NCBI RefSeq assembly: GCF_023509015.1
Contig: NZ_CP094975.1
Coordinates: 4,767,501-4,831,500, forward strand
Length of the DNA stretch: 64,000 nucleotides
Direction of reading: 5' to 3'
From: Pseudomonas abieticivorans
Lineage (GTDB): Bacteria; Pseudomonadota; Gammaproteobacteria; Pseudomonadales; Pseudomonadaceae
The notes beneath the pieces are model-generated. The model was not told the DNA's origin and did no database searches. It saw nothing but the letters and a program-made list of their open reading frames with translations. Below, in pieces: positions 51,918 to 64,000 of the stretch (its first letter is position 1; each line of letters starts with the position of its first letter). The position numbers and the translations under genes were made by a program.

Positions 51918-52121
51918 GATCGATTCCCTTAACGTGCGCAGTGGCGCACTGACACCGACAGTCTGCCCAGTGCCCGGGCTAACCGTCGCGGCACAATTGC
52001 ACTAGGCCAGCCGGTGCATTCGCACCCTGCGGTGTGCACGCGCACTGCACTATCCTGCTTCAAAAGCGTCCTATGCCAGAGGCTGCCTAACGCCAGCAGC
52101 GCCGTAATTTCAGGAGTCATA

Positions 52122-53606
52122 ATGAGCCAGGCCGTCCTTGCCACCGAAACCAATCGCCGCCAGTTGCAAGAGATCATCGCCGGGTTGTCCGACGGCGTGA
52201 TCCTGCTGGAAATCGACCAAACCATTCTCTGGGCCAACGAAGCGGCGTTGGCCATGCATGGCGTGGCCGATATCGCAGGCCTGGGTGCCAACGCCGAGGA
52301 GTACCGCCAGCGCTTTGCCCTGCGTTACCGCAACAATCACCCCTTGACGGCCGACCAGTACCCCATCAGCCGCGTGGCCGGCGGCGACACGTTCAGCGAT
52401 GTGGTGGTCGAGGTCACCGACGGTGATGAGCGCGCCTGGGTGCACCGGGTGCGCAGCATGGTGCTCACCGACCGCAACGGTGACGCCGAGTCGTTGGTGC
52501 TGATCCTGGCGGACGCCACCGAGTGGGCCAGCGCCGAGCAGCGCTTTGAAAAAACCTTCAACGCCAACCCCGCGCCGGCGGTGATTTGCCGCCTTAACGA
52601 CTTGCGCTACATCAAGGTCAACCAGGGCTTTCTGGAAATGACCGGGTATTCGCGTGAGCAGGTCATCGGCCGCTCGGTGTACGAAGTGGACGTGCTGGAG
52701 GACGCCGAGCGCAAGGATTTAGCCATAGAACGCCTGAACCAGGGCTCGACCATTCCGCAGATGCAGGCCGAGCTGAAGCTGCCCGATGGCGGCAGCAAGC
52801 TGGTGATCGTCGCCGGCCAGCCGTTGGACATCAACGGCGAGGACTGCATGCTGTTTTCCTTCATGGACCTTGAGCCCCGTCGCAAGGCCGAGGTTGCCTT
52901 GCGCCAGAGCGAGGAGCGCTTTGCCAAGGCCTTCCGCCTGACGCCAGTGCCCACCTTAGTGTGCAGCGCCGATCGCCAGCATGTCGTGGAGGTCAACGAG
53001 GCGTTTCTCGACACCACCGGCTTTACTTCAGAGGAAGTGATCGGGCGGTCGGTGGCCGAGATCGGGTTTATCGAAGGCACGTCTACCTGCCAGCAATTGT
53101 TCGGCACCTTGGAAGCTGCCGGCAACCTTCACGGGATGGACGTGCAGGTGCGCAAGAAGGGCGCCGAACTGATCGACTGCGTGCTCTCGGCCGACACCTG
53201 CACCATCCAGGGGGTGGCTTGTTATTTGTTGGTGCTGATGAACATCACCGAGCGCAAACGCTCGGAGTTGGAACTGGTATCGGCCATCGAGGAGGTGATG
53301 CGCGATGCTTCCTGGTTCAGCCAGACCCTGATCGAGAAACTCGCCAACGTCAAAAGCGCCAATGCCTCCAATCACCCGGCCACCGCCTTTACCGACCTCA
53401 CGGTGCGCGAGCGCGAAGTGCTGGGCTTGATCTGCGAAGGCTTGGCCGACAAGGAAATCGCCGGCCGCCTGGGCCTCGCGCCCAATACCATTCGCAACCA
53501 CGTGGCCACGGTGTATTCCAAGCTTGCGGTGCACAGCCGCAGTGAAGCGATTGTGTGGGCGCGTGAGCGCGGGTTGTTCGCCGGAGAGCGGCGCGTGGGG
53601 CGTTAG
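52122..53606 (+). CDS. Three-PAS LuxR-type transcriptional regulator
   Basis: A 494-aa regulator. Three PAS domains at residues about 10-140, 150-265 and 275-395 (FEKTFNANPAPAVICRLNDLRYIKVNQGFLEMTGYSREQVIGRS; FAKAFRLTPVPTLVCSADRQHVVEVNEAFLDTTGFTSEEVIGRS) and a C-terminal LuxR HTH (LTVREREVLGLICEGLADKEIAGRLGLAPNTIRNHVATVYSKL). CAGGAG 6 nt before ATG 52122 fixes the start. It probably senses redox or a ligand by PAS and binds DNA directly. Targets unknown; the neighbouring CsbD and DUF1652 genes are candidates by position. Confidence 0.88.
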   Translation: MSQAVLATETNRRQLQEIIAGLSDGVILLEIDQTILWANEAALAMHGVADIAGLGANAEEYRQRFALRYRNNHPLTADQYPISRVAGGDTFSDVVVEVTDGDERAWVHRVRSMVLTDRNGDAESLVLILADATEWASAEQRFEKTFNANPAPAVICRLNDLRYIKVNQGFLEMTGYSREQVIGRSVYEVDVLEDAERKDLAIERLNQGSTIPQMQAELKLPDGGSKLVIVAGQPLDINGEDCMLFSFMDLEPRRKAEVALRQSEERFAKAFRLTPVPTLVCSADRQHVVEVNEAFLDTTGFTSEEVIGRSVAEIGFIEGTSTCQQLFGTLEAAGNLHGMDVQVRKKGAELIDCVLSADTCTIQGVACYLLVLMNITERKRSELELVSAIEEVMRDASWFSQTLIEKLANVKSANASNHPATAFTDLTVREREVLGLICEGLADKEIAGRLGLAPNTIRNHVATVYSKLAVHSRSEAIVWARERGLFAGERRVGR

Positions 53607-56017: not shown

Positions 56018-56085
56018 TGCGTCAAAGTGCGTCGCTTTTGGCGGCCTTGCGAAATTGAGCACCGCTAACCCGCAGCGAATACTCG
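56018..56085 (+). promoter_or_regulatory. Promoter and tandem activator sites of the TPP/ABC operon
   Basis: Tandem TGCGTC-AAAG-TGCGTC (56018-56033), then TGCGAAATTGAGCA (56048-56061) containing a third TGCG and the -35 TTGAGC (56055-56060), a 17-bp spacer, and -10 AATACT (56078-56083). TGCG steps at 0, 10 and 30 bp lie on one helical face. The same blocks at the same spacing occur at 63885-63952. Layout fits an activator (AraC- or LuxR-type) working just upstream of and overlapping -35. Confidence 0.75.
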
Positions 56086-56154
56086 GGACCAACGGCAAGC
56101 GCGCCAAGCCCCCCATGGGCGTGACGCGCAGCCTTCGTCTGATTGGAGTTCACT

Positions 56155-57894
56155 GTGAAGCTCACCGGCGGCCAGATCGTAGCAAGAGCCCTCAAGGCAC
56201 ATGGCGTGCAGTACGTCGCTGGCATCCCGGGTTACGGGTCTTGGGCGATGGTCGACGCCTTGCTGGCCCCTGGTAGCGAGATACCCTTTATCCAGGTGAT
56301 GCAGGAGCAAAGCTCGGTGCACATGGCCGACGGTTACTACCGTGCGTGCGGGCGGCCGATGGCGGCGCTGCTGCCCACGGCGGTAGGTGTGTCCAAGGCC
56401 CTGGGCGGCTTGGCCACGGCGTTTGCAGACTCAACGGCGGTACTGGTGGTCAGCGGTGGGCAATTGTCGCACCTGCCGCAACCCCAGTGCGCCGACACCG
56501 CTCACCGAGGCCAGTACACCGCCCGGCCTTGTGGTGTCAGCAAGGCCCAACTGCAGGCCAATGCCATCGATCAATTGCCCAGCACCTTGCACCGTGCCTT
56601 CAGCACGATGCTCAGTGGGCGCCCGGGCCCTGTGAGTGTCGAGGTGCCGATTAACGTGCAGGTCGGTACTGCCCAGGTGCGTTTCGACCCGCCCAATACC
56701 CGTATGCCTTCAGGTCGCGCCCGCGCCGAAAAAGGCCAGATAGAGCGTGCCCTGCAGTGTTTGCGCCGAGCACGACGGCCCTTGATCCTGGCGGGTGGTG
56801 GCGTGATCGCTAGTGAAGCCTCGCAGGAACTCACAGCCTTGGCCTGCGCCCTTGGCGCGCCGGTGGTCACAACCTGCAACGGCAAGGGGGCTATCGCCGA
56901 GGACCACCCCTTGAGCGCCGGCCCGATCGGCCGGCTCGGCAGCCCTTGTGCCAATCAGTTGCTGGGCACGGCCGACGTGGTACTGGCGGTGGGCAGCCGG
57001 CTGGCCACCACCCTGCAGCAAGGCGGGGATGGCGGGGCCGTATCGGCATTGGCTCATGCCCAACTGATCCAGGTGGATGTGGACGCTGACGAGATCGGTC
57101 GCAACCACCGCGTCGAAGTGGGTATCAGCGCCGATGCACGCTCAGTGTTGGCGGACTTGGCCGCCGGGCTGACCCCTGCGTGTTCCCGCCAGATTGCACG
57201 TGACCGTAAGGCTTACCTGAAAGAAGTCAGTGGGCTGATCGAGCAATGGGAGGCTCGCCTGTCGCTGGATCGCAGCGACGACGCCTTGCCCTTTATCGTG
57301 CAGCGGCCATTGGCCGAGTTGCGCCAAGTGTTGGAGCGCGACGCCATCGTGGTGGTCGGTTCAGGCAGTGTCCAAGCCGCCGTGCGGCAAATGTTCCCGG
57401 TGTACCTGCCGCGCACCCACCTGTGCTCCGGTAGCTTCGGCTCACTGGGTTGGGCGGTACCGGCGGCCATCGGCGCGAAGCTGGCGATGCCGGCCCGCCA
57501 GGTGGTGTGCATCGTGGGTGATGGTGACTTCCTGCAGTCGATGCAGGAAATGGCCGTGTGCGTCATGCACACCATTCCCGTGGTGTTCCTGGTGTTCAAC
57601 AACAGCGGCTACGTGGCGCTGCGCGATGCGCAGTCGCAGGTGTTTGGCCGCCACCTGGGCTGCGAATTCAACTTGCCGGATGGCAAACCCTATTCCCCGG
57701 AATTTGCCGAGATCGCCCGGCATTTCGGCCTGCAGGCCTGGCGCGTGGAGCATGCCTCGCAGCTGGCTGCCACCCTGCACAAGGCCGTCAACAGCAAAGG
57801 CCCGGCGCTGGTGGAGTTCATCACCACGCGCGGCAATACGGGCGCGGTCGAGCAGGGCAACCTGCACTTTCCGGCGCCCGTCTACGACCAGTAA
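56155..57894 (+). CDS. Thiamine-diphosphate-dependent enzyme (acetolactate synthase-like)
   Basis: A 579-aa three-domain TPP enzyme. The catalytic Glu is in FIQVMQEQSSVHMADGYYRA; the central domain has RRPLILAGGGVIASEASQEL; the TPP-Mg site is IVGDGDFLQSMQEMAVCVMHTIPVVFLVFNN. It resembles acetolactate synthase large subunits and benzoylformate decarboxylases, so a 2-oxo acid decarboxylation or carboligation is likely, but the exact substrate is not readable. GTG 56155 is chosen because TTGGAG lies 6 nt upstream. It leads an operon with a sugar-type ABC importer and a GMC oxidoreductase. Confidence 0.85.
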   Translation: MKLTGGQIVARALKAHGVQYVAGIPGYGSWAMVDALLAPGSEIPFIQVMQEQSSVHMADGYYRACGRPMAALLPTAVGVSKALGGLATAFADSTAVLVVSGGQLSHLPQPQCADTAHRGQYTARPCGVSKAQLQANAIDQLPSTLHRAFSTMLSGRPGPVSVEVPINVQVGTAQVRFDPPNTRMPSGRARAEKGQIERALQCLRRARRPLILAGGGVIASEASQELTALACALGAPVVTTCNGKGAIAEDHPLSAGPIGRLGSPCANQLLGTADVVLAVGSRLATTLQQGGDGGAVSALAHAQLIQVDVDADEIGRNHRVEVGISADARSVLADLAAGLTPACSRQIARDRKAYLKEVSGLIEQWEARLSLDRSDDALPFIVQRPLAELRQVLERDAIVVVGSGSVQAAVRQMFPVYLPRTHLCSGSFGSLGWAVPAAIGAKLAMPARQVVCIVGDGDFLQSMQEMAVCVMHTIPVVFLVFNNSGYVALRDAQSQVFGRHLGCEFNLPDGKPYSPEFAEIARHFGLQAWRVEHASQLAATLHKAVNSKGPALVEFITTRGNTGAVEQGNLHFPAPVYDQ

Positions 57895-57960
57895 ACGGCT
57901 GGCAAGCCCTTAAAAAAACAAGCCGTTGCAACCCTGTGGTTTTGCATGAGGAGCATTATC

Positions 57961-58890
57961 GTGAGCGCAATAATCGTGACACCCCCCGACCCTGCGGGGC
58001 GCCGAGCCCCCAAGTGGTATCGCCTGAGCCCCGCGGCGCTGACGATCACGCCCACCTTTATCCTGGTGGCCATCAGCGTCTATGGCTTTATCGGTTGGTC
58101 GACGGTGATCTCTTTCACCGACTCCAAGTATTTCCCCAAGTATGACTTCGTTGGGTTGGCGCAGTACTACCGGCTGTGGGAGTCGGACCGCTGGAACACC
58201 TCGGTGATCAACCTGCTGTTGTTCTCGGTGGGCTTTGCGCTGATATCGCTGTTGCTGGGCTTGATCATCGCGATTTTTCTGGACCAGAAAGTGCGCGCCG
58301 AAGGCGTGCTGCGGATGATCTACCTGTACCCCATGGCCATATCGCTGATCGTCACCGGTATCGCCTGGAAGTGGATCTTGAACCCAGGCACCGGCATCGA
58401 GCACCTGCTCAAGGGCTGGGGTTTTGAAGGCGCCAGCTTCAATTGGTTGGTCGACCCGAAAATGGCCGTGTACACCCTGGTGATCGCGGCCGTGTGGCAA
58501 ACGGCGGGCTTTGTCATGGCCATCTTCCTGGCCGGCCTGCGTGGGGTCGACGGCGAAATCGTCAAGGCCGCGCAGTTGGAAGGCGCCGGCGCGTTTCGCA
58601 TCTACACCCAAATCATCATCCCCATGCTGCGCAACTCCATGTTCTCGGCGATCGTGATTCTGGTCTACCAGGCCGTGCGCTCGTTTGACCTGGTGGTGGC
58701 CCTGACCAATGGCGGCCCCGGTTACTCCAGCGACCTACCCACCACCTTTATGTACAACTCCACCTTCCTGCGCGGGCAAATGGCCCAAGGCTCGGCCAGT
58801 GCCGTGATGATCCTGTTGGTGGTGGTGGCCATTGTCGTGCCTTACCTGTATGGGGAGTTCAAACGTGAACACACTGACAACCATCACTGA
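57961..58890 (+). CDS. Sugar ABC transporter permease 1 (Gts-like)
   Basis: A 309-aa inner-membrane permease with six helices of the MalF type and the EAA loop (GEIVKAAQLEGAGAFRIYTQIIIPML). I chose GTG 57961 (MSAIIVTPPDP) with GAGGAG 7 nt upstream over ATG 57946. It overlaps the second permease gene by 26 nt. With the binding protein and ATPase it forms a carbohydrate uptake system resembling the Pseudomonas glucose transporter GtsABCD; the substrate is unknown. Confidence 0.9.
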   Translation: MSAIIVTPPDPAGRRAPKWYRLSPAALTITPTFILVAISVYGFIGWSTVISFTDSKYFPKYDFVGLAQYYRLWESDRWNTSVINLLLFSVGFALISLLLGLIIAIFLDQKVRAEGVLRMIYLYPMAISLIVTGIAWKWILNPGTGIEHLLKGWGFEGASFNWLVDPKMAVYTLVIAAVWQTAGFVMAIFLAGLRGVDGEIVKAAQLEGAGAFRIYTQIIIPMLRNSMFSAIVILVYQAVRSFDLVVALTNGGPGYSSDLPTTFMYNSTFLRGQMAQGSASAVMILLVVVAIVVPYLYGEFKREHTDNHH

Positions 58891-59782
58891 CAGCGCCACC
58901 CGCGCCGACACTCGGCTGATACGCCGCCATGCCTTCAAATGGCTGCGCCGCCTGGCGTTGTATGCCGCGCTGATCGGTTTTGCCGCGTTCTTTCTCATGC
59001 CACTGTTGGTGATGCTGTTCGCCTCGTTCAAGGACATGGACGCCATCCGGCAGACCTCGATCCTGGCGTTCCCCACCAGCCCCACCTGGCAACCTTGGGT
59101 GGATGCCTGGTCCAGTGCCTGCGTGGGGACCAGTTGCGTGGGCCTGCGCGGTTTCTACTGGAACACGTTCGTGATGGTGGTGCCGGCGGTGGTGATTTCG
59201 GCACTGGTGGGCGCGGTGAACGGCTACGCCCTGTCCAAGTTCCGCTTTCGCGGCGCCAACCTGGTGTACGGGCTGATCCTGTTCGGCACCTTCGCTCCCT
59301 ACCAGGTGATGCTGGTGCCCATCGCCAAGATGCTCGCACTGCTGGGCCTGTCCAACGGCATCGGTGGGCTGATCCTGTTGCACACGCTGTATGGCCTGCC
59401 GATGACGACGATGTTTTTCCGCAATTACTTCATGACGGTGCCGCAGGACTTGATCAAGGCCGCGCAAGTGGATGGCGCCGGTTTCTGGACGACCTTTGCG
59501 CTGATCATCTTGCCCATGTCCACGCCGATGATCGTGGTCACGGTGATCTGGCAGTTCACCGGCATCTGGAATGACTTCCTGTTCGGTGTCTCGTTCACCA
59601 GCGGGGCCAGCACGCCAATCATGGTGGCGTTAAACAACCTGGTCAGCTCCAGCGCGGGCGAGCGGCCTTACAACATCCACATGGCAGGTGCGCTGCTGTC
59701 GGCGCTGCCGACATTGGTGGTCTATGTCCTGGCGGGCAAATATTTCGTGCGTGGCCTGATGGCCGGCGCGGTCAAGGGGTAA
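58865..59782 (+). CDS. Sugar ABC transporter permease 2 (Gts-like)
   Basis: A 305-aa MalG-type permease with six helices and EAA loop (QDLIKAAQVDGAGFWTTFALIILPMSTPM). I chose GTG 58865 (MNTLTTITDSATRADTR), with GGGGAG upstream, inside the end of the first permease gene. It ends RGLMAGAVKG, typical of this class. It works with permease 1. Confidence 0.9.
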   Translation: MNTLTTITDSATRADTRLIRRHAFKWLRRLALYAALIGFAAFFLMPLLVMLFASFKDMDAIRQTSILAFPTSPTWQPWVDAWSSACVGTSCVGLRGFYWNTFVMVVPAVVISALVGAVNGYALSKFRFRGANLVYGLILFGTFAPYQVMLVPIAKMLALLGLSNGIGGLILLHTLYGLPMTTMFFRNYFMTVPQDLIKAAQVDGAGFWTTFALIILPMSTPMIVVTVIWQFTGIWNDFLFGVSFTSGASTPIMVALNNLVSSSAGERPYNIHMAGALLSALPTLVVYVLAGKYFVRGLMAGAVKG

Positions 59783-59788
59783 GCACAC

Positions 59789-60868
<1,080 letters not shown>

Positions 60869-60924
60869 AAAAAACTTTGCCCGAACTGCCTCTCTCTATC
60901 AACCCAGCACAAAAGAGAAACGTG

Positions 60925-62217
60925 ATGAACAGAACAAACCTTCGCGGCACCTTGCAGTTGATGTGGAACCGGGGCGCGGCAGGGGCCGTGGCCTTGACCG
61001 TGCTGTTGGGCGCAGGCACCGCAGCGGCCGCCGAAAAGGTGGTGGAAGTGGTGCACCCCTGGTCGTCAGCAGGCGAAGCCCATGCCCTGGATGCGCTGAA
61101 GGATGCAGTAAAAAAGGCCGGCATCGGCTGGAAGGATTCGGCTATCGCCGGCAACGATGGCAACAATCAGCAGCAGGCGCTGCAAGCACGGTTGGCCGCC
61201 GGCACGGCACCGGACGTGACCCAGACGGTGCCCAACCTGATGCACGCCTATGTGGACCAGGGTGTACTGACCAACCTCGACGCGTACGCCAAGGAACAAG
61301 GCTGGGATGCCAAGCTGTCGCCGGAAATGCGCACGTTCGCGATGTACCAGGGTTCCTACTATGCGATCCCGCTGGATGAGCACCGGGAGAACATGATGTG
61401 GGCCAACAAGGCCCTGCTGGCCAAATACGGCGGCCAGCTGCCGCAAAACTGGGAGCAGTTCAACGCCATCGCCGAGCGCATGCAAAAGGACGGCATCATC
61501 CCCGTGGCGCTGGGCGGAGAGGATTGGCAAGAGGCGCAATTGTTCACCTCGGTGATCGTCGGCATCGGCGGTAAGGACTTCTACACCCAGGCCATTTTGC
61601 AGCACGACCCGGCGGCGATCCAAAGCGAAACCATGGTCAAGGTGTTCGACCAGTTTCGCAAAGTGATCAACTTCACCGACAAGAACCGCATCGGCCGTGA
61701 CTGGAACGCCGCCACGCAAATGGTCATCGACGGCAAGGCCGGCTTTCAGTTCATCGGTGACTTTGCCAAGGGCGAATTCCTGCGTGCCAACAAGCGCCCC
61801 GGTGAAGATTTCCTCTGCGCCGCATCACCGGGCAACGGCCGGGCGTTCGTGTTCATCACCGATCAACTGGCGTTCTTCAAGCAAGACAGCGCCGAGCACC
61901 AGCAGATCCAGAAAACCTTCGCCAGCCTGATGGTCGACCCGGCCGTGCAGATTGAATTCAACGCCCGCAAAGGCTCTATCCCGACCATCGTCGATGTGCC
62001 GGCGGACAAGTTCGACAGCTGCGCGCAAATCAACCTGGCTGACCGCAAGGCCAACCAGGCCGACGGCGGGATGCTGCCTTCATTCGTCGAAAACATCGGC
62101 CAGGATCGTGATGTGCGCGGGGTGTTCCTGGACGTAATTACCCACTTCGCCAATACCCCGGCCATGACCTCGCGCCAGGCAGCAGACCGCCTGGTGGCTG
62201 ATCTCAAAAATATCTAA
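60925..62217 (+). CDS. Sugar ABC transporter binding protein (GtsA-like)
   Basis: A 430-aa family-1 binding protein with signal peptide (GAVALTVLLGAGTAAAA). The mature part EKVVEVVHPWSSAGEAHALDALKDAVKK, the NGNNQQQALQARLAAGTAPDVTQT segment and RIGRDWNAATQMVIDGKAGFQFIGDFAKGEF resemble the glucose/mannose protein of Pseudomonas. Residues VVHPWSSAG replace VVHWWTSGG, so ligand choice may differ. It likely delivers a sugar or polyol to the permeases. Confidence 0.9.
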   Translation: MNRTNLRGTLQLMWNRGAAGAVALTVLLGAGTAAAAEKVVEVVHPWSSAGEAHALDALKDAVKKAGIGWKDSAIAGNDGNNQQQALQARLAAGTAPDVTQTVPNLMHAYVDQGVLTNLDAYAKEQGWDAKLSPEMRTFAMYQGSYYAIPLDEHRENMMWANKALLAKYGGQLPQNWEQFNAIAERMQKDGIIPVALGGEDWQEAQLFTSVIVGIGGKDFYTQAILQHDPAAIQSETMVKVFDQFRKVINFTDKNRIGRDWNAATQMVIDGKAGFQFIGDFAKGEFLRANKRPGEDFLCAASPGNGRAFVFITDQLAFFKQDSAEHQQIQKTFASLMVDPAVQIEFNARKGSIPTIVDVPADKFDSCAQINLADRKANQADGGMLPSFVENIGQDRDVRGVFLDVITHFANTPAMTSRQAADRLVADLKNI

Positions 62218-62226
62218 GGCGGGTGC

Positions 62227-62248
62227 GGCCGGGCGCTTGCGCCCGGCC
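62227..62248 (+). promoter_or_regulatory. Strong hairpin between binding-protein and GMC genes
   Basis: A perfect 10-bp stem (ggccgggcgc with gcgcccggcc) and 2-nt loop lie 9 bp after the binding-protein stop, with no T-run. It could protect the upstream message and lower expression of the oxidoreductase, as in maltose-type operons. Function inferred. Confidence 0.55.
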
Positions 62249-62266
62249 CTTGGAAGGAGCGGCGCC

Positions 62267-63925
62267 ATGCTTGAAAAAAACTATGTAATTGTCGGGGGCG
62301 GCACCACCGGCTGCATTCTGGCGGCCAAGCTGTCAGAGGATCCGGCGGCCACGGTGCTGTTGCTGGAGGAGGGCCCGCGCGACAGCAATCCCTACATCCG
62401 CTTCCCCGGCACCTACTACAAGACCTGCCAGGGGCCGCTGCTCAAGCGCTACCCTTGGGAGTCTGCCAGCGAACTGGGTCGGGGGCCTGGTGACAGCATG
62501 ATCCAGGCCTGCGTGCTGGGCGGTGGCAGCTCGATCAACGGTATGGTCTACGCCCGCGGTAACCCGGCGGACTATGATGAGTGGGCGCAATCGGGCGCGG
62601 CGGGTTGGGCGTATGCAGACGTTCTGCCGTACTACCTGCGTTCGGAAGACAATTCGGATTTCTGCAACAGCGCCCATGGCGTCGGTGGGCCGTTGGGCGT
62701 GTCGTTCAACAGCCACGTGCACCCGTTGACGCGCAAATGGCTGCAGGCCTGCCAACAGGCGGGTTTTGCCTACAACCCGGACTTCAACTCGGGCACGCCG
62801 GATGGCTGCGGCTATTACCAGGTCGCCAGCCAGAACGGTGTGCGCGCAAGCTCTGCCAGTGCCTACCTGCGCCCGGCGCTGCAGCGTCCTAACCTGCAGG
62901 TGATCACCGGGGCCAAGGCCTCGCGCCTCATCATCGAGAAGGGGCGCGCCACGGGCGTCGAGTATGTGCATCGGGGGCTACCGTGCAAGGTGGCCGCCGC
63001 AAGCGAGGTCATCCTGTGCGCCGGCGCGATCAACTCGCCCAAGTTGCTGATGCTTTCGGGCATCGGCGCGGCGGCTGACTTGCAAGCCTTGGGGCTGGCC
63101 GTGAAGGCCGACCTGCCGGGCGTGGGGCGCAATCTGCAGGATCACCTGGAGATGTCCCAGGTGTATCAACTCAAGGGCGTCGACAGCTACGACAAATTCA
63201 AGAAGCCGCATTGGAAAGCCTGGGCCGCGTTGCAGTATCTGGTGGCGCGCAGTGGTCCCATCGCCACCAACCTGATCGAAGGTGGGTTGTTCGCCCGGGG
63301 TTCGCGAACCGAGCAGCAGCCCGACCTGCAGTACTTTTTCATCGTGGGCGCGGGCATCGAGGAGGGCACCGACAGTGTGCCGGGCGGCACCGGTTGCACG
63401 CTCAACTTTGAGCACGTGCGCCCGCGTTCCCGTGGCCAGGTGTCGCTGCGCAGTGCCGACCCCCACGAGCTGCCACGCATCGCACCCAACTACATGGCCG
63501 AGCAATACGATGTCGATCGCCTGTGCGAGGGCTATCGCATTGGCCAGGACATCATGGCCCAGCCGGCATTCAGCGGCTACGTGGCACGCCAGCATTACCC
63601 CGATGTGACCTTCACCAGCCAGGCGCAGCTTGCCGCTTACCTGAAACGCAATGCGCGTGCCGCACTGCACCCGGTGGGTACCTGCCGCATGGGTGTCGAT
63701 GCGTTGAGCGTCGTCGACCCACAGCTGCGCGTGCACGGTATCGACAACCTGCGGGTAGCCGACGCCTCGATCATGCCGAACATCGTCTCCGGCAACACCA
63801 ATGCGGCGTGCACCCTGATCGGCGAGCGTGCGGCCGACCTGATTCGCGGCCTGCCCCCTTTGGCTCCGGGTGCTGCGCGCGACCTGCGTCAAAGTGCGTC
63901 ACATCGTCTGGGGCTGCGAAATTGA
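62267..63925 (+). CDS. GMC-family FAD oxidoreductase (alcohol/choline dehydrogenase-like)
   Basis: A 552-aa cytoplasmic flavoprotein. FAD site YVIVGGGTTGCILAAKLSEDP at the N-terminus, the GMC signature GGGSSINGMVYARGNPADYDEWA, a second signature SEVILCAGAINSPKLLMLSGIG, and the active-site HPVGTCRMG plus NTNAACTLIGERAADLI at the C-terminus. AAGGAG precedes ATG 62267. It probably oxidises an alcohol or polyol produced by, or imported through, this operon. The last 14 residues (DLRQSASHRLGLRN) are encoded by the next gene's activator sites, so this tail is likely not functional. Confidence 0.9.
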   Translation: MLEKNYVIVGGGTTGCILAAKLSEDPAATVLLLEEGPRDSNPYIRFPGTYYKTCQGPLLKRYPWESASELGRGPGDSMIQACVLGGGSSINGMVYARGNPADYDEWAQSGAAGWAYADVLPYYLRSEDNSDFCNSAHGVGGPLGVSFNSHVHPLTRKWLQACQQAGFAYNPDFNSGTPDGCGYYQVASQNGVRASSASAYLRPALQRPNLQVITGAKASRLIIEKGRATGVEYVHRGLPCKVAAASEVILCAGAINSPKLLMLSGIGAAADLQALGLAVKADLPGVGRNLQDHLEMSQVYQLKGVDSYDKFKKPHWKAWAALQYLVARSGPIATNLIEGGLFARGSRTEQQPDLQYFFIVGAGIEEGTDSVPGGTGCTLNFEHVRPRSRGQVSLRSADPHELPRIAPNYMAEQYDVDRLCEGYRIGQDIMAQPAFSGYVARQHYPDVTFTSQAQLAAYLKRNARAALHPVGTCRMGVDALSVVDPQLRVHGIDNLRVADASIMPNIVSGNTNAACTLIGERAADLIRGLPPLAPGAARDLRQSASHRLGLRN

Positions 63926-63952
63926 GCAGGGCCTGGCCGGTGTCGATACTCG
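63885..63952 (+). promoter_or_regulatory. Second copy of the TPP/ABC operon promoter
   Basis: TGCGTC-AAAG-TGCGTC (63885-63900), TGCGAAATTGAGCA (63915-63928, with -35 TTGAGC at 63922-63927), 17-bp spacer and -10 GATACT (63945-63950). All blocks keep the offsets seen at 56018-56085. The activator sites and half of the -35 lie inside the end of the GMC coding region. It drives the gene starting at 63987. Confidence 0.75.
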
Positions 63953-63986: not shown

Positions 63987-64000
63987 ATGGCGTACTACCT
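63987..64000 (+). CDS. Start of a gene cut by the window end
   Basis: ATG at 63987 reads MAYY and a partial fifth codon, with AAGGAA (63974-63979) 7 nt upstream and the duplicated promoter 34 bp upstream. Too short to identify; by its promoter it should be co-regulated with the TPP/ABC/GMC operon. Confidence 0.6.

Follow-up and report, generated by a model that had tools for sequence, protein, structure and literature searches.

Two putative operator-promoters of a catabolic cluster in Pseudomonas abieticivorans and a Cro/C1-type protein as their probable regulator

Repeated promoter elements and the cluster they serve

The window analysed here is a stretch of 64,000 nucleotides (C1:4767501-4831500) from the genome of Pseudomonas abieticivorans, a single contig of 6.7 Mb, and it carries two promoter-like elements, P1 and P2, at the two ends of an operon for a thiamine pyrophosphate (TPP) enzyme, an ABC transporter and a GMC oxidoreductase (Table 1). 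Direct reading located three blocks in each element, namely TGCGTCAAAGTGCGTC at 56018 and 63885, TGCGAAATTGAGCA at 56048 and 63915, and ATACTCG at 56079 and 63946. The first-pass annotation of this DNA had described one promoter architecture used twice, with identical offsets of 0, 30 and 61, a -35 TTGAGC, a 17-bp spacer and a -10 (A/G)ATACT in both copies and non-identical spacers between the blocks, and this description was borne out to the base. The distance between the hexamers is that of sigma-70-type promoters (~17 bp), from which transcription is predicted, and the hexamers agree with the consensus, as compared by eye, at just four of six bases each.

The composite pattern TGCGTC-N4-TGCGTC-N14-TGCGAANTTG had two perfect matches in the window and a runner-up with six mismatches. 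The loose tandem TGCGTC-N4-TGCGTC was not enriched in the window at up to two mismatches (10 observed against 12.4 expected), and therefore only the composite was counted as evidence. A whole-genome search with the long pattern, allowing up to three mismatches, returned four matches and none for the reversed control; four sites are perfect, all on the + strand, at C1:4823518 (P1), 4831385 (P2), 4839832 and 4843278. A shorter pattern of 16 letters gave ten matches at up to two mismatches, of which four were perfect and six had two mismatches; as the reversed control yielded eight, we regard these six as background. The two-promoter regulon proposed earlier has to be enlarged, since the genome holds exactly four perfect copies and all of them fall inside one 20-kb catabolic cluster, which argues for a four-promoter regulon. 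The matches were thus confined to 20 kb rather than scattered at random over the genome.

The gene cut by the right edge of the window, which had been predicted to belong to the regulon, does begin 3' of P2 and encodes a HisD-like dehydrogenase. Its nearest solved relative is HpsN, a sulfopropanediol 3-dehydrogenase (8v35, E 3e-113); oxidation of dihydroxypropanesulfonate would be assigned here by homology, and unlike its relative the HisD-like gene stands among sugar-type enzymes. The third site precedes a set of MFS transporter, TIM-barrel and Gfo/Idh genes and the fourth a second GMC/TPP set.

Table 1. Promoter elements and genes between P1 and the right edge of the window (window positions)
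Feature	Position	Strand	Remark
P1 boxes 1 and 2, TGCGTCA-N3-TGCGTCG	56018..56034	+	0 mismatches to genome-scan pattern
P1 proximal box TGCGAAATTG, extending into -35	56048..56057	+	direct reading
P1 -35 hexamer TTGAGC	56055..56060	+	position kept among 182 sites
P1 -10 hexamer AATACT, 17-bp spacer	56078..56083	+	
TPP enzyme (acetolactate-synthase-like), first gene after P1	56155..57894	+	
ABC transporter permease (sugar type)	57946..58890	+	
ABC transporter permease (sugar type)	58871..59782	+	domain scan used longer frame from 58832
ABC transporter ATPase (UgpC/MalK-like)	59789..60868	+	
ABC transporter solute-binding protein (SBP_bac_1)	60925..62217	+	
GMC oxidoreductase (choline-dehydrogenase-like), P2 within 3' end	62264..63925	+	
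P2 boxes 1 and 2, TGCGTCA-N3-TGCGTCA	63885..63901	+	direct reading
P2 proximal box TGCGAAATTG	63915..63924	+	direct reading
P2 -35 hexamer TTGAGC, GMC stop codon TGA inside	63922..63927	+	
P2 -10 hexamer GATACT, 17-bp spacer	63945..63950	+	
HisD-like dehydrogenase (HpsN-like) start, cut by window edge	63987..64000	+	L007:488-1795

A Cro/C1-type protein that accompanies the sites

Through a motif search of 348 genomes of the genus Pseudomonas (up to three mismatches), the motif was found in 23 genomes, and the reversed pattern in two with one match each. Genes from 26 stretches, 25 of them with motif matches, were clustered prior to any protein search; a HisD-like enzyme recurred in 22 stretches and a regulator of Cro/C1 type in 21. 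This protein has a relative in 20 of the 22 stretches around sites in other genomes. In P. abieticivorans it is a protein of 288 residues encoded at C1:4833286-4834149 on the - strand (L007:2284-3150), 1.8-2.6 kb past the right edge. The regulator had been expected beyond base 64000 and of AraC or LuxR type; the location stood, the type did not. The idea of a single dedicated regulator for the shared architecture is supported by the conserved co-occurrence of this one protein.

Presence of the protein and of the site went together genome by genome. A close relative (E <= 1e-60) was encoded by 21 of the 348 genomes, all 21 of which have sites, as against two of the other 327 (G222 and G250). 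In G250 the site is kept before the HisD-like gene, and a transposase pair with rve and HTH_Tnp domains (L069:11649-13051), adjoining that gene, lies between it and the TIM-barrel gene, an interval that in some relatives is the regulator's place; no remnant of the regulator was found in this stretch by tblastn, and the genome has no family member at E 1e-20 despite its target promoter. For the family at large (E <= 1e-20) we used the pattern GCRTCA-N4-GCRTCA-N14-GCGAAATTG, with 21 fixed bases and at most one mismatch. Both protein and site occurred in 150 of the 348 genomes, the protein only in nine, the site only in one (G250) and neither in 188, and the reversed pattern in none. Three of the nine protein-only genomes (G210, G252 and G337) carry a subfamily, described below as III, whose boxes deviate. 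In a sample of 397 genomes of the phylum, the site was present in 13, all of which were among the 40 with the protein, and the reversed pattern was again absent; 20 of 30 family loci from this sample had a match with up to three mismatches in ~3.8 kb, compared with 0/30 for the reversed pattern.

The pairing was also examined in 80 regulator loci from named genomes, drawn from 257 confirmed candidates and including Pseudomonas, Paraburkholderia, Caballeronia, Acinetobacter, Polaromonas, Sinorhizobium, Shinella and Mesorhizobium, which we take to span the alpha-, beta- and gammaproteobacteria. A site with up to three mismatches was present in 69 of them, and the reversed control gave 0/80 at up to four. 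Genes were predicted with a simple codon-score script, which plainly breaks down in part of the GC-rich loci, L120 and L121 among them.

The protein belongs to the Cro/C1 (XRE) helix-turn-helix (HTH) proteins by its match to PF13443 (22.9 bits against a cut-off of 22), and the Pfam scan found neither an AraC HTH nor a GerE (LuxR) domain in it. No cupin and no PAS-like ligand domain matched in Pfam at E 0.001, and the C-terminal part had no Pfam match. An AlphaFold model (28 sequences, mean pLDDT 83.8, pTM 0.60) places eight consecutive strands, without PAS helices, after the N-terminal HTH. In structure comparison these predicted strands resemble avidin-type and other up-and-down barrels; this is a likeness of structure only, the barrel rows are common-fold matches, and the missing of other folds among them carries no meaning. 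Foldseek returned no significant structural neighbour for the model. The barrel might, as a guess from the model, hold a ligand pocket. The reader of P1 and P2 is most likely this protein with a Cro/C1 HTH and a predicted eight-stranded beta-barrel, of neither AraC nor LuxR type.

Operator geometry and the change between subfamilies

To describe the operator we assembled 182 distinct sites, from which only identical stretches of 105 bases had been removed and sites near locus ends dropped before counting; many of the Pseudomonas loci stem from the same genomes sampled twice. The conserved operator consists of direct repeats at 10-bp spacing, the last box entering the -35, and not of the palindrome that is usual, though not universal, for Cro/C1 proteins. 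A palindromic reading was also tried and rejected, the conserved letters having no dyad by eye. The -10 follows at a fixed 17-bp spacer: the pattern NANNNT lies exactly 17 bp away in 83% of 145 sites, the mean of 24 scanned offsets being 7%. By group, the share at 17 bp was 94% for the main Pseudomonas sites (n = 70), 86% for the second-group Pseudomonas sites (n = 14), 100% for the beta sites (n = 16) and 57% for the alpha sites (n = 42). At 169 of the 182 sites a co-directional gene begins within 350 bp of the -10, most often HisD-like (33), followed by TPP (27), short TPP (20), solute-binding protein (19), Gfo/Idh (17) and TIM-barrel genes (16), others being fewer.

When any repeated 6-mer was allowed, TGCGTC at distance 10 was found in 22 of 23 main loci and the best unrelated word in five, with other words rising to 12 when distances of 8-13 are taken. 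In L203, L205 and L206, which lie outside the gammaproteobacteria and are presumably alphaproteobacterial, all four 10-bp positions are filled, and this would account for the empty +20 position of the main motif. In 16 of the 23 loci (L050, L053-L057, L059-L067 and L069), an additional TGCGTC is found 11 bp before box 1 ahead of the HisD-like gene, as if a further protomer could bind there.

The genome of P. abieticivorans encodes a second family member with 29% identity (L076), and 20 paralog loci were chosen manually, the majority from among the highest-ranking family matches. Upstream of 21 paralog genes, on the opposite strand, we read NGCATCA-N3-NGCATCA-N13-NGCGAAATTG, a pattern with the geometry of the main site and G replaced by A. 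In subfamily II the same N3/N13 spacing was present in 17/17 loci when up to three mismatches were allowed, whereas the reversed control gave none up to four. In 16 of these 17 loci a gap of 43-58 bp separates the site from the beginning of the regulator match, and the site points away from the regulator, the lone distant one being L160:5969, at 1131 bp. The divergent genes fall into the cluster of the own-genome Na:alanine symporter in 15/21 paralog loci and of the own-genome asparaginase in 13/21. In subfamily III (four loci), a weaker version of the site with four mismatches precedes a peptide-type ABC operon (domains from L167). Above the cut-off, Pfam matched PF01381 and PF13443 in subfamily II and PF13443 (22.2 bits) in subfamily III.

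The recognition helix changes in parallel with the boxes: subfamilies I and III have NRQQF and GCGTCA, and subfamily II has NRAQF or NRGQF and GCATCA-like boxes. It is an evenly balanced proposition that this unnamed Cro/C1-barrel family reads a four-position head-to-tail operator as an asymmetric oligomer, in which the helix residue Q as against A/G would select GCGTCA or GCATCA.

Activation, rival explanations and known systems

Taken together, the presence and rarity of the elements, their occurrence alongside the protein family, the conserved spacing and the joint change of recognition helix and boxes lead us to read P1 and P2, with a probability of about 0.78, as operator-promoters of a pathway-specific regulon of four promoters switched by the Cro/C1-barrel protein as an activator. 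Physical binding, the head-to-tail arrangement, activation rather than repression and an inducer are what we infer from them. Protomers of the regulator would line up head to tail along a single face of the DNA, on boxes spaced by 10 bp in the order TGCGTCA, TGCGTCA, a degenerate third position and TGCGAAATTG. The promoter is taken to be a weak one of sigma-70 type, its spacer fixed at 17 bp, and the last box overlaps its -35. Because of this overlap, the bound protomer would be placed to touch sigma region 4, and the regulator may be assigned to the class II activators from the box position. A small molecule of the pathway, probably held in the barrel, would set its activity, and the inducer-bound regulator would recruit polymerase to the weak promoter.

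Several observations weigh against this interpretation. The strict site is missing from nine of the 159 family-positive genomes of the genus and from 27 of the 40 protein-bearing genomes of the phylum sample, and 11 of the 80 regulator loci (L111, L114, L120, L134, L143, L144, L145, L147, L148, L151 and L155), several of them on short contigs, showed none even when three mismatches were allowed. The genome counts span related species and are not independent, so that Fisher p-values for the co-occurrence in the genus overstate the case. Most sites have no recognisable third box. In the paralogs the any-6-mer test was not distinctive, with TGATGC at distance 10 in 8/21 and CTGGCG at distance 9 in 10/21, and the paralog case rests on the upstream reading and the spacing count of subfamily II instead. 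The subfamily II site, moreover, lies between the regulator and the divergent operon, and repression of the regulator from there is just as possible.

The main rival, unlikely in our judgement, is that the same Cro/C1 protein acts as a repressor which blocks the -35 until released by an inducer. The overlap of the proximal box with the -35 would suit repression too, the subfamily II site adjoins the regulator's own start, and XRE regulators are described in PMC12565409 as often autoregulatory and palindrome-binding. However, two more boxes stand upstream of the -35 at a fixed distance, as would be expected for an activator, the hexamers match the consensus poorly, as already noted, and the regulator is the next same-direction gene within 600 bp at 0 of the 182 sites.

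It is very improbable that an AraC- or LuxR-type activator encoded nearby, as suggested earlier, reads the repeats. Direct repeats are typical of AraC proteins (PMC9723621) and two LuxR-type genes are at hand, a PAS-LuxR gene at 52119-53606, 2.4 kb before P1, and another at L007:19015-19764 after the cluster. But neither LuxR-type protein has a relative in any of the 22 stretches in which the Cro/C1 protein has 20, the annotated recurrent gene clusters included no AraC or LuxR family, and it is the Cro/C1 family whose presence tracks that of the site. The statement that the window contains no regulator gene for the two promoters held insofar as the likely regulator lies outside, although the window does hold this PAS-LuxR gene, which is not conserved near sites. 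Control by the IclR regulator, whose gene is located inside the cluster (L007:3468-4241), is just as improbable, since it has no relative in the same 22 stretches and its cluster recurred in no other of the 26. Both nearby LuxR genes and the IclR gene were rejected as readers for want of conservation near sites elsewhere. That P1 and P2 are alike as remnants of a recent duplication of promoter DNA is scarcely credible, for although P1 is 76% identical to the fourth site along 66 bp, the copies in this genome have different spacers and flanks, P1 as plain DNA matches neither P2 nor the third site, and other genera and classes show the same letters at the same spacing.

The repeats read by AraC-type activators run into the -35 of their target promoters, as do the boxes here. 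AraC-type activators share with the present system the direct repeats in their targets (PMC9723621), whereas the regulator has no AraC HTH in Pfam and one Cro/C1 HTH per chain. Direct-repeat binding is described as restricted to few regulators, mostly AraC (PMC9723621), which makes such operators unusual for HTH regulators outside AraC, and XRE proteins as often binding palindromes (PMC12565409); the main text of the latter mentions neither "direct repeat" nor TGCG. The XRE-cupin protein PsdR (PMC12565409) and the XRE-PAS proteins MmyB/MltR (PMC3406030) resemble the regulator in having an N-terminal Cro/C1 HTH, local control of metabolic genes and a C-terminal domain of ligand-binding type, predicted in our case. 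They differ from it in that its C-terminus is predicted to be an eight-stranded barrel, neither cupin nor PAS, in that its operator is a long direct-repeat array and not a palindrome, and in that the main regulator's own gene has no site ahead among the 182. BldC, a MerR-like precedent for head-to-tail binding (PMC5859096), and ArdK (PMC9723621) are likewise small HTH proteins with asymmetric binding to direct repeats, which for the regulator here is presumed; both, however, belong to unrelated families, BldC having 9-bp repeats and no sensor barrel and ArdK being a KorA-family repressor from plasmids.

No published description of the operator or the family was found in the literature searched, outside which lie most subscription papers and preprints. 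The family, named in sources only as XRE-type, helix-turn-helix or hypothetical, is now linked to an exact DNA signature of great rarity, and its regulons can therefore be read straight from genomes. Those annotated for the three subfamilies are the HisD/TPP/GMC sugar-type catabolic cluster, the symporter/asparaginase operon and the peptide-type ABC transporter. If the asymmetric-oligomer reading is right, it would be a DNA-binding mode that we have not found reported for any Cro/C1 protein, together with a simple code of specificity by which orphan catabolic regulons could be read from sequence.

Some further features of the cluster were recorded. A direct duplication with an offset of 295 bp lies between the HisD-like gene and the regulator gene (approximately L007:1792-2300), and part of the 3' end of the regulator is repeated in it. 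A pair of HipA-like and HTH (HipB-like) genes lies within the cluster at L007:4258-5852 (-). A protein of 233 residues (L007:15841-16542) has no Pfam or NCBIfam match, and its gene cluster occurs in 32 of 105 loci. Directly after the catabolic cluster, the domain scan identified alpha/beta hydrolase, glycosyltransferase and LuxR-type genes (L007:16820-19764), which resemble rhlA/rhlB/rhlR. A two-domain TPP enzyme without the central domain is encoded at L049:8805-9869 (-), and its cluster is present in 33 of the 105 loci, some of which share a genome; the arrangement is that of sulfopyruvate or phosphonopyruvate decarboxylases.

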